Positions 6,097 through 9,275 of a stretch of DNA of 34,412 nucleotides are shown here, one piece after another; the first letter of the stretch is position 1, and the number at the start of each line of letters is the position of its first letter. This DNA is from Bacteroidales bacterium (GTDB taxonomy: Bacteria > Bacteroidota > Bacteroidia > Bacteroidales > Tenuifilaceae), in the NCBI GenBank assembly GCA_003818205.1, contig RPRQ01000049.1:1-34412 (forward strand). Direction: 5' to 3'. Made by a program: the position numbers and the translations under genes. The notes beneath the pieces were generated by a model. It was given only the letters and a program-made list of their open reading frames with translations, was not told where the DNA came from and did no database searches.

Positions 6097-7038
6097 ATGG
6101 TTGAAAATATTACAGAGCATCTGAGAAAAATATCCGTTGAGAGTTGTTTTGAGTTATCAGCATTTCGCAGTGGATGGGAAACATGGAAAATTGAAATTCA
6201 AAATAAATTAGGAAATAATTTCAATGAAATTGATATTTTAAATTTAGGAGATCATTTATCAACTATTTTCTCAATAACAGGAACAGGGCGCAGCCAAAGT
6301 GATGTTTCAGGTGGGGGATATGGCTGGGAAGGATTTATTTGCTGGTATTTGAATTTATGTTTAATTGGCAGCAGAGGTGTAGCTGTGAGAAAAATCTCAA
6401 GTTTACCAGAACCTCTTCGAGATTCAATTTCTGTTAACTATGGGAATTTTAGAAGTAATACTGAATCAGATATTACAGTTATCATTTTCCCAAATTTACA
6501 AGAATTTACATCAGACATAAATACATTAGAGATACTGGATAGTCGAGGAATGAGAATCCCAAACCTTTTAAGGTCAGGTAAATTTAATCTGAAAGGTATT
6601 TTTGACAGACTTTCTGAACTATATTTTGACAATTTTGAATTAGGTATAATCCAATGTAAAACGAATTGGAATGATAACGCACAAATCCCAATGCTTTGGA
6701 GCATGATTTATGAAGCAAATTCTTTTGTTAATAGTTCAATCTCAATTGGCAGAAATAATTACAGCCTAAGGGATTTAAGAAAATTCACATATTCATTCTG
6801 TACCGTTCCAACGAATAGCCTAGATAACTATACACAAAGTTCAACTTCTGTAAATAGAGTAAGAAATTTAACAGGAGGAAATTACTGGGGATACCCAACA
6901 AGTAATGGTATTGCAAGTTCAATAAAAGAGATATTTAACAATAACTTCAGAAACGCATATACAACAAACCAAAGAACATGTATAAGAAATTCAATTCTTG
7001 AATTATCTGAACGATTAAACTATTTCGATATTATTTGA
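6097..7038 (+). CDS. putative type II restriction endonuclease, PD-(D/E)XK fold
   Basis: The 313-residue protein is not assigned to a known restriction family by eye. Context and motifs suggest an endonuclease: an acidic strand TESDITVIIF (about residues 126-135) followed by ELGIIQCKTNWNDNAQIP (about residues 186-203) gives the D...(Q/E)-x-K pattern of PD-(D/E)XK nucleases, with Gln192 and Lys194 as candidate catalytic residues. There is no signal peptide or membrane segment. It faces a C5-cytosine methyltransferase and the two stop codons overlap by eight bases (7031-7038), a tail-to-tail type II restriction-modification layout. The gene looks AT-richer than its parE and mgtE-side neighbours, which suggests acquisition. 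Recognition sequence cannot be predicted. It could instead be a non-cleaving accessory factor, but this is less likely. Confidence 0.72.
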   Translation: MVENITEHLRKISVESCFELSAFRSGWETWKIEIQNKLGNNFNEIDILNLGDHLSTIFSITGTGRSQSDVSGGGYGWEGFICWYLNLCLIGSRGVAVRKISSLPEPLRDSISVNYGNFRSNTESDITVIIFPNLQEFTSDINTLEILDSRGMRIPNLLRSGKFNLKGIFDRLSELYFDNFELGIIQCKTNWNDNAQIPMLWSMIYEANSFVNSSISIGRNNYSLRDLRKFTYSFCTVPTNSLDNYTQSSTSVNRVRNLTGGNYWGYPTSNGIASSIKEIFNNNFRNAYTTNQRTCIRNSILELSERLNYFDII

Positions 7039-9235
7039 TTACTTTCAATATTTCAACAGCTACAGCCCTCGCAAGTAAAGGAGGAACTGCATTTCCAACT
7101 AGCGTAAATTGAGGAACCTCATCTTTACGTTTATTTCCACCAGTTGATCTTTTTCCCTGAAAAACGAAAGAATCATCAAAGGACTGTAAACGTGCCATTT
7201 CCCTAACGGTAAGTGCTCTTGGATTAGAGTAATGAATATAATCATCAGGAATGGTCATTACAGTTGGACTTTGAGAATCTGGTTTCAAAATATTATAATT
7301 TCTTTTCTCAGAATCAAGTCCTTCCTTTCTAAGATTTACCTTTGCTTTATCATAATCACCAGTATTTAATATTATTTCGAGCCTTTTAACTACATCATCG
7401 TTTTGCTTGCTCGTTTTATGATTATTCAAAGGTGTAGGTATATGCTGTAATGGATTGTTAAACTCCTCAATATTTCTAACATAAAGAGGTTGTTTAATAT
7501 TAGCAAATCGTCCATTTAATCTACCCGTTTTTGACCATTCTGAGTACGATTTACCTGTTTCGGAAACCCTACCATCTACATTTCGCTTCTTTAACAATTC
7601 TTTTAAATATTCAGCAGAACCGTTATACTTCTCAAATAGATCAACCGTAGAGTAAGTATGACTTTCTTCATCATTTCCTATAAAATCTAAATCATAAATT
7701 GCTTCAAATACTGTTACTTTTTCATTATGCTTCAAGCTTGAAGGAATCTCTTTTATCAATTTTTGATCTTTACGACAACCAATAAATAGTACTCGTTCTC
7801 TATTTTGAGGTACTCCATAATTTGATGCAAGAGCAACAAATGGTTCATCAATATTATAAAGTCTTAATTCACTCAAAATCTCTTCAAATTCCTCCTTTTT
7901 GTTGAATTTTACTGAAAGTTGATTCAATGAATTTAAGCATTCATCTATTGTTTGCGAAAAAATCTGAAGTGAGCTGCTGATGTCTTCAACATCTTTCTTG
8001 TAATCTTTTGGCGATTTTAAATTATTGAAAGCTAACCCTATAACCCCAATTATCGATTCTGGCTCAATGAAACTCAGAAAATCATTAAACTTTTCAACAA
8101 AAAAATCATTGTCTATGTCACAAACTGACTTCTCAATAATTACTTGCTTTTTTATTGCTCTTAATTCCTTGATTCTCTTTAAAAGATTGAATCCATGTCT
8201 TATTGTGCCAATGCTCTCATCAGTTTTTGAAGTTTTATAATCTGCAATTTTGGGGAGTAGATTTTTAAATTTTTGCTCAACATTATTAATATATCTTTCT
8301 TTTAACAAAGAAAGTTCATTACCATTTGACTTTTCAAATTGCAATCTCTGAATATAGCAGTCTATGAGGAAACTATAACCATTATCAATTTTCTTGAGGT
8401 GGTTTAAAAAGATAATAAGTTTAGGTAATTCGTTAAAATCAATAATTGATCTAATTTGAGAAAGAATCATTTCTTTAATCCTACCATTTTCCTTTGTTAG
8501 AATGCCCTTGACATTCTCCATAATAAAATATTTTGGTCTCAAATGGCTTATCACATCTATATAGTGAGAAAACAGATCATCCTTTTTATCGAATTTCTTC
8601 CTCTTTCCTGCTAAGCTAAAACTCTGACATGGAGGTCCACCACAAATTACATCTACCTTTTGTCCTTCTAATTTTTCTAAAAGATTATTGAGAAAATCTG
8701 ACTCTGTAATATCCTGTTTTAAAAATTGTGTACCTAACCCTAGTTGATGATTATATCGAACCACATGCGTTAACTCGCAATTCTCGTTGATGTCGCTCGC
8801 TAAAATAAAATCGAATATTTTATTTTTCTGTTCCGCTTGCAAAAATCCTTCGCTAAATCCTCCCGCTCCTGCAAACAAGTCAATAAATGTTATTTTTTGT
8901 CCATAAAAAGGTTCTGAATCTTCAATAATCTTTACTTCGTTGCTTGATCTATAGCATTCCACAAGAGAAGAAACCTGTTTTTTAATTTCGCTTACTGTTA
9001 AATCTTTTTTATGACTATTATTAAAAAACGATTCTGTCTCTTTTTTCAAGTAGAAGAAATAGTTATTTATAGATTCTCTACCTTTTACACATTGATTATC
9101 TATATCCCATTCCACAAGGTTAACTTTCTCACCAGTAGCAATCTTGATTTGTTTACCTTTGCATCTTATCACTAAATGAATGGGTGCAAATCCCTTTTTA
9201 TCTGATTTATCGCGATAGAAATTAACTGTTGCCAT
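7031..9235 (-). CDS. C5-cytosine DNA methyltransferase with N-terminal integrase-type Arm domain
   Basis: The 734-residue enzyme methylates cytosine at C5 using S-adenosylmethionine, presumably protecting the site of the facing endonuclease. Motifs in order: I FIDLFAGAGGFSEGF (117-131), IV GGPPCQSFS (199-207, catalytic Cys203), VI MENV (239-242), VIII QNRERV (477-482), IX LTVREMARLQSF (675-686), X VGNAVPP (713-719). Two parts are extra. Residues ~1-75 (MATVNFYRDK, APIHLVIRCKGKQIKIATG, VEWDIDNQCVKG) resemble the Arm DNA-binding domain at the N-terminus of Bacteroidetes tyrosine recombinases. Between motifs VI and VIII there are about 235 residues, where simple members such as M.HhaI have about 40. 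The target-recognition region should lie after motif VIII. The ATG is the first residue of the Arm motif, which supports this start. GTCCGT repeats lie directly upstream. Confidence 0.93.
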   Translation of the reverse strand: MATVNFYRDKSDKKGFAPIHLVIRCKGKQIKIATGEKVNLVEWDIDNQCVKGRESINNYFFYLKKETESFFNNSHKKDLTVSEIKKQVSSLVECYRSSNEVKIIEDSEPFYGQKITFIDLFAGAGGFSEGFLQAEQKNKIFDFILASDINENCELTHVVRYNHQLGLGTQFLKQDITESDFLNNLLEKLEGQKVDVICGGPPCQSFSLAGKRKKFDKKDDLFSHYIDVISHLRPKYFIMENVKGILTKENGRIKEMILSQIRSIIDFNELPKLIIFLNHLKKIDNGYSFLIDCYIQRLQFEKSNGNELSLLKERYINNVEQKFKNLLPKIADYKTSKTDESIGTIRHGFNLLKRIKELRAIKKQVIIEKSVCDIDNDFFVEKFNDFLSFIEPESIIGVIGLAFNNLKSPKDYKKDVEDISSSLQIFSQTIDECLNSLNQLSVKFNKKEEFEEILSELRLYNIDEPFVALASNYGVPQNRERVLFIGCRKDQKLIKEIPSSLKHNEKVTVFEAIYDLDFIGNDEESHTYSTVDLFEKYNGSAEYLKELLKKRNVDGRVSETGKSYSEWSKTGRLNGRFANIKQPLYVRNIEEFNNPLQHIPTPLNNHKTSKQNDDVVKRLEIILNTGDYDKAKVNLRKEGLDSEKRNYNILKPDSQSPTVMTIPDDYIHYSNPRALTVREMARLQSFDDSFVFQGKRSTGGNKRKDEVPQFTLVGNAVPPLLARAVAVEILKVIK

Positions 9236-9238
9236 TTC

Positions 9239-9275
9239 ACGGACATTTTTACGGTTACGGACAAATTTACGGACA
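9239..9275 (-). promoter_or_regulatory. GTCCGT repeat array before the methyltransferase start codon
   Basis: On the plus strand ACGGACA occurs at 9239, 9257 and 9269, with a degenerate ACGGTTA at 9251. On the minus strand these are GTCCGT hexamers separated by AT-rich hexamers, with 12- and 6-base steps, ending four bases before the ATG. The array lies between the likely promoter and the start codon, where an operator would block transcription or initiation. It may be the binding site of the Arm domain encoded by the same gene (inference). Confidence 0.6.

Follow-up and report, generated by a model that had tools for sequence, protein, structure and literature searches.

The window, by which we mean the whole stretch of 34,412 nucleotides that was analysed, carries on its minus strand the gene for a predicted C5-cytosine DNA methyltransferase whose N-terminus (MATVNFYRDK at the start of the ORF) resembles the arm domain of Bacteroidota integrases and, close upstream of this gene, a conserved array of short direct repeats enclosing a candidate promoter box (Table 1). 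A convergent ORF on the other strand had no match in Pfam, NCBIfam, PHROGs or PADLOC and, judged by its position, is the probable restriction endonuclease of the system. By eye only, an ESD and QCK residues can be seen in it with a spacing like that of PD-(D/E)XK nucleases.

Table 1. Features of the methyltransferase locus, in positions of the window
Feature	Position	Strand	Basis
Probable restriction endonuclease, convergent 313-aa ORF	6097..7038	plus	position
Arm-domain C5-cytosine DNA methyltransferase (predicted)	7031..9235	minus	ORF of 734 aa, stop codon counted in; PF00145 E 2.7e-57
Methyltransferase domain, residues 115-734	7034..8893	minus	PF00145 begins at residue 115
Insert of ~200 residues, residues ~265-465, motifs VI/VIII	7841..8443	minus	PF00145 in two stretches
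Arm-DNA-bind_5-like domain, residues 1-99	8939..9235	minus	profile matches, BLASTP, AlphaFold2 model
Conserved repeat array, proposed arm-type operator	9239..9275	minus	sequence and homologous loci
TAAATTTG, fits Bacteroidota -7 element TAnnTTTG, between first two hexamers	9262..9269	minus	sequence, alignment

The match to PF00145, the catalytic PCQ and the motifs I-X indicate a C5-cytosine DNA methyltransferase, as the initial annotation had proposed for the part that follows the N-terminal domain. The NCBIfam model TIGR00675 likewise exceeded its cut-off with the window protein (161 bits against 100.65), and the segments PPCQSFS, ENVKG and QNRERV are fully or almost invariant in the methyltransferase alignment A3. 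The insert of about 200 residues, whose limits in the window protein were drawn by eye, is missing in a 409-aa Stenotrophomonas relative. Pfam gave no hit at E<=10 between the window protein and the tyrosine recombinase catalytic domain (PF00589).

The same annotation had likened the N-terminus to the Arm domain that begins tyrosine recombinases, and we consider its homology to integrase arm domains to be firm on the profile evidence. A comparison by hhalign of 48 methyltransferase N-termini (alignments A3 and A4, 48 of the 80 fetched sequences) with 20 integrase arm domains gave a probability of 99.6% (E 1.2e-24 over 90 columns), against 0.7% for the core-binding region of the same integrases used as a control, and BLASTP aligned the window N-terminus with integrase L125 over 98 aa at 32% identity. 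The suggested Pfam search did find an arm family, PF17293 (Arm-DNA-bind_5), on residues 7-54, but taken singly the window domain falls under the Pfam threshold (20.5 bits, where the cut-off is 22.6, with E 7e-4, when just the N-terminus was scanned; E 0.013 within the whole protein). Three homologues scored above the cut-off, at 34.4, 32.6 and 28.1 bits, and 25 of the 26 N-termini in alignment A2 matched the family at E<=0.01. With the N-terminus alone, NCBIfam and PHROGs gave no match, and no helix-turn-helix family was among its Pfam matches. The AlphaFold2 model (mean pLDDT 89.3) shows three predicted strands followed by two helices, and its fold match by VIA-align to known arm domains, which have a three-stranded sheet and a helix, was weak. 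When solved structures were searched with the profile of the N-terminus, no integrase arm domain was found; the best matches, ankyrin repeats (E 0.0064), were discarded as based on a short repeated PxHL-like match.

Of 395 genomes of the phylum, five had a full-length homologue (E<=1e-60), that of the window among them, and 232 relatives were confirmed by scanning genome contigs, the best 80 of which were fetched. The combination of arm domain and methylase recurs, with 79 of these best 80 matching from residue 1 and the remaining one truncated by its contig end. As the fusion is present in four further genomes of the 395 and in the 80 fetched loci, it is not an accident of the window genome. 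Of the best 80 of 232, 79 come from Bacteroidota and represent at least six named classes, the other being titled just 'bacterium'; clustering at 90% identity, with the window included, gives 54 clusters. A search for arm-less members of the family in 296 genomes of the phylum returned four matches at E<=1e-40, that of the window counted, all of them with the arm. The nearest arm-less relative found was the Stenotrophomonas plasmid enzyme mentioned above, which is 37.9% identical over 59% of the query and starts shortly ahead of motif I. With tblastn the N-terminus found nothing at E<=1 in 50,697 phage records, and viral contigs yielded one relative, 33% identical from residue 118 onward and without the arm domain. 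A quick tree, built on few columns from 25 arm domains of methyltransferases and 42 of integrases, places the methyltransferases on one side of one branch (SH-aLRT 80), which is compatible with a single capture of the arm domain by the methyltransferase lineage.

Upstream of the window gene, GTCCGT occurs at 9269-9274, 9257-9262 and 9239-9244 on the minus strand, with a degenerate AACCGT at 9251-9256. The hexamers thus stand at offsets of 0, 12, 18 and 30, from which the full array can be described as two 18-bp units placed head to tail. These repeats begin 4 bp outside the interval covered by the initial annotation, which did not mention them. In 78 of 79 loci from the best 80 of 232 (L088, cut by its contig, was left out of upstream counts), the array lies close upstream of the start codon and reads TGTCCGTAnnTTTGTCCGT, mostly with a second 18-bp unit. 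At least two GTCCG copies fall within 110 nt of the start in 78 of the 79, and in the window too. The offsets are 0, 12, 18 and 30 in 48 of these loci, 0, 12 and 30 in 14, and 0 and 12 in 12. The best 18-bp unit matches at least 16 of 18 positions in 79 of 80 sequences, and it begins 39 or 40 nt ahead of the start codon in 39 of 80, the array lying within about 20-70 nt of the start. The exception, L025, has the arm domain and lacks the upstream array (L025:1-130, one of the 79); it lies near a contig end.

The unit is conserved far beyond its surroundings. Among proteins that are 55-65% identical, its DNA identity is 94%, against 27-37% for the same protein pairs in windows 22 to 100 nt upstream and 69% in the next 18 bp downstream. 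It is not conserved as protein, because its spacing from the start codon places it in each of the three frames (43, 24 and 12), and the possibility that the array is coding sequence was ruled out for this reason. Sites with at most one mismatch numbered 1, 1, 1, 1 and 2 in five genomes, in which the counts with two mismatches resemble those of a reversed control pattern, and a strict 20-base pattern matched the window's own genome alone among 198. The initial annotation had proposed that a second DNA-binding activity could serve either autoregulation or tethering to a specific locus; the conserved promoter repeats and their integrase-like layout speak for the first use, and tethering elsewhere gains no support from the near-single sites per genome. 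We also considered an operator in viral contigs, where 18 stretches carry the exact pattern; none is followed by an ORF resembling this methyltransferase or the arm domain, as judged by eye from the printed starts of these ORFs, and the matches look like chance.

The octamer between the first two hexamers fits TAnnTTTG, the -7 element described for the primary sigma factor of Bacteroidota (PMC7366714). In the 79 aligned loci from the best 80, TA and TTTG are near-invariant and nn is variable, and about 19 nt upstream of the box a TTG is moderately enriched (T 54, T 42 and G 45 of 79); the window has no clear -33 TTTG or upstream TTG. The second 18-bp unit has an A-rich middle in place of TAnnTTTG and, going by its position, would overlie the predicted transcription start, expected near position 9255 of the window.

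Were arm domains to recognise direct repeats close to their own genes, such repeats would be expected for arm-domain integrases as well. We therefore screened the 150 nt upstream of integrase ORFs for direct repeats whose copies lie 11 or 12 bp apart and agree at 8 or more positions with no more than 1 mismatch, taking windows from the same loci as controls. The 11-12 bp spacing was picked after set 1 (30 loci minus two methyltransferases and five loci with short flanks), in which repeats were found in 16/23 integrase ORFs vs 17/276 control windows, and the rule was then fixed, so that sets 2 and 3 are tests. In set 2 (26 loci, less four shared with set 1 and two whose flanks were short) repeats preceded 18/20 ORFs vs 18/240 controls, and in set 3 (40 additional places, not counting five for which no locus was listed), where the domain matches were weaker, the result was weaker too (19/40 vs 10/119). 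Pooled over the three sets (L091-L231), this amounts to 53/83 vs 45/635. One such upstream repeat reads ATGTTGTACCTATGTTGTACCT, and that of integrase L143 reads ATGTTGTACCT. The catalytic part was that of a recombinase in all 20 integrases scanned, and these repeats are probably arm-type sites.

Repeat similarity followed arm identity across 43 arm domains, namely the window and 42 integrases whose best 11/12-bp repeat score was at least 9: it was 0.47 below 20% identity, 0.62 at 30-40% and 0.81 at 40-50%, vs 0.45, 0.48 and 0.57 for neighbouring control DNA in the matching bins. The Spearman coefficient was 0.31, a value reached by 0 of 999 label permutations; shared DNA ancestry may contribute to this correlation. 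The methyltransferase repeat itself was no more similar than average (0.43-0.50) to the repeats of the three integrases with the closest arms. Exact TAnnTTTG overlapped the repeats in 3 of 42 integrases, and the repeats lay a median of 67 nt before the start, so that promoter overlap is not general in integrases.

These comparisons bear on two other explanations. The repeats could bind another protein, such as a host regulator or a specialised sigma factor, with the arm domain serving dimerisation or non-specific DNA contact. Binding of the array by the arm domain is inferred, and RNA polymerase alone would conserve the promoter box within it; yet the array accompanies the gene at 94% identity through at least six named classes of Bacteroidota, a host regulator would need equal conservation and be expected to have further targets, although exact sites are single per genome, and the same repeat spacing recurs upstream of arm-domain integrases, all of which makes this explanation improbable. 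We regard it as very unlikely that domain and repeats are left from, or serve, recombination, the restriction-modification island being moved or anchored by an integrase that uses the same repeats as its arm sites. Both domain and repeat layout are indeed integrase-like, but a GTCCGT pair was present in none of the integrases examined, which had at most one GTCCG per 150 nt, the viral-contig matches look like chance, and the array sits next to the methyltransferase start rather than at island edges. We favour binding of the array by the methyltransferase itself.

The genes that accompany the methyltransferase differ between loci. Relatives of the 313-aa ORF are convergent to it in 15 of the 79 loci from the best 80 of 232, and an MvaI/BcnI-type partner was found by tblastn with a representative in 57 of the 79 (Pfam was run on two of these partners); a third kind occurred in two, a Dazbog-like gene alone in one, and in three a contig end intervened. 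Across the same 79, a restriction gene lies downstream in the same direction in 56. One of the best 80, L070, has the operator and no known partner gene nearby, and is possibly a solitary enzyme. As the array is kept with three kinds of partner and in the partnerless L070, it belongs to the methyltransferase. L020:8232-11638 holds PADLOC matches to DzbA and DzbB between the methyltransferase and the MvaI/BcnI-type gene, and in 6 of the 79 loci from the best 80 the methyltransferase is followed by a DzbA-like gene, as though the promoter served another defence system too. In L054:4474-6187, a 205-aa gene of no named family (relatives in 3 of the 79) and a GmrSD_N gene stand between the methyltransferase and the MvaI/BcnI-type gene.

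A promoter holding the enzyme's own target, silenced or relieved once modified, could also be pictured, and control through methyltransferase activity is a recognised class (PMC3978073). MvaI cleaves CCWGG. BcnI cleaves CCSGG (PMC4081073). With partners of this type in 57 of the 79 loci, CCNGG is the target class to be expected; it is present in 0 of 79 of the 60-nt upstream regions (best 80 of 232), and the array as a methylation target was rejected for this sequence. The consensus array also lacks any 4-bp palindrome containing C, and we consider control by methylation of the promoter extremely unlikely. The arm domain might instead act on the repeats as an activator, or as a switch favouring the restriction gene, in the way that M.SsoII represses M and stimulates R (PMC3978073); the probable restriction gene of the window is convergent and would have its own promoter. 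This too we hold to be highly unlikely, as the repeats lie on both sides of the -7 box and extend into it, which is typical of repression, and the opposite strand of the 80 best loci (872,048 bases) yielded no copy of the array, from which it follows that the restriction promoters are without the array.

We propose, at roughly three chances in four, that the methyltransferase is an autorepressor, acting on its own promoter by way of a borrowed arm domain and an arm-type operator. The N-terminal arm domain would bind the tandem GTCCGT repeats, which lie around and across the -7 box and the probable start of transcription; as the enzyme accumulates, the bound protein would exclude RNA polymerase and transcription of the methyltransferase would fall, a downstream restriction gene in the same direction, where there is one, being turned down with it. 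Two to four monomers could be seated on the two 18-bp units, in each of which a pair of hexamers stands 12 bp apart, this number of monomers and the effect on the restriction gene being presumptive. The homology of the domain, the conserved site at the promoter box and the similar spacing upstream of integrases lend strong indirect support to autoregulation.

Self-regulation is described for several C5 methyltransferases, namely M.SsoII, M.Ecl18kI, M.EcoRII, M.MspI, M.ScrFIA and M1.LlaJI (PMC3978073, PMC6100179, PMC3695355). M.SsoII represses its own gene through an N-terminal domain and a 15-bp site distinct from the sequence it methylates (PMC3978073, PMC3695355). The window family shares with this type the extra N-terminal domain on a C5 methyltransferase, the conserved non-target site at its own promoter and, by analogy, the negative feedback. 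Where these sources describe the domain of the M.SsoII type, it is a predicted helix-turn-helix on an inverted repeat (AGGACAAATTGTCCT in M.SsoII), whereas the window family has an integrase-type arm domain and direct repeats. With no helix-turn-helix match, a model that begins with three strands, and repeats that are direct, it would work like M.SsoII without being a member of that type. In C-protein restriction-modification systems an operator-binding protein likewise delays or limits R and M (PMC3978073); as described there the controller is a separate gene, whereas here the DNA-binding domain lies within the methyltransferase.

Among autoregulated tyrosine recombinases, such as KplE1 IntS and P4 Int, arm-type sites overlap the recombinase's own promoter, and IntS is reported to repress the promoter so overlapped (PMC2951348). 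Autorepression is thus shown for IntS, and its methyltransferase counterpart would be analogous. The window protein differs in having no recombinase catalytic domain, and IntS probably belongs to a different arm-domain lineage. Closer are the Bacteroidota integrases (PF17293, PF13102 and PF00589), which have a homologous N-terminal domain and repeats 11-12 bp apart upstream, but which carry a recombinase catalytic part, have other repeat sequences and seldom hold a promoter box inside the repeats. Among open-licence PMC papers we found no publication on an arm domain in a cytosine methyltransferase, nothing on autoregulating methyltransferases with such a domain in Bacteroidetes, and no paper on arm-type sites in Bacteroides. 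What appears new here is the partner site, that is the repeat array, and the use of integrase-type parts in a methyltransferase that, on sequence grounds, would regulate itself.

More tentatively, and with rather less than even confidence, we suggest that the arm domain and a tandem 11-12 bp promoter repeat form a portable autoregulatory cassette of Bacteroidota, in which arm domains are transcription regulators that recombinases use for complex building and self-limitation, and which a methyltransferase lineage captured once, site included. On that view, the DNA just upstream of most PF17293 integrase genes could reveal the arm sites of these enzymes. The repeat rule gives a simple means of finding candidate arm-type sites in many uncharacterised Bacteroidota integrases, and for the methyltransferase an exact candidate operator is supplied. 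A restriction-modification system entering a new host must bound the level of its methyltransferase, and here regulator and site would come together in one gene; this would show that a defence enzyme can take over the DNA-reading domain of mobile-element integrases for use as a transcription regulator.
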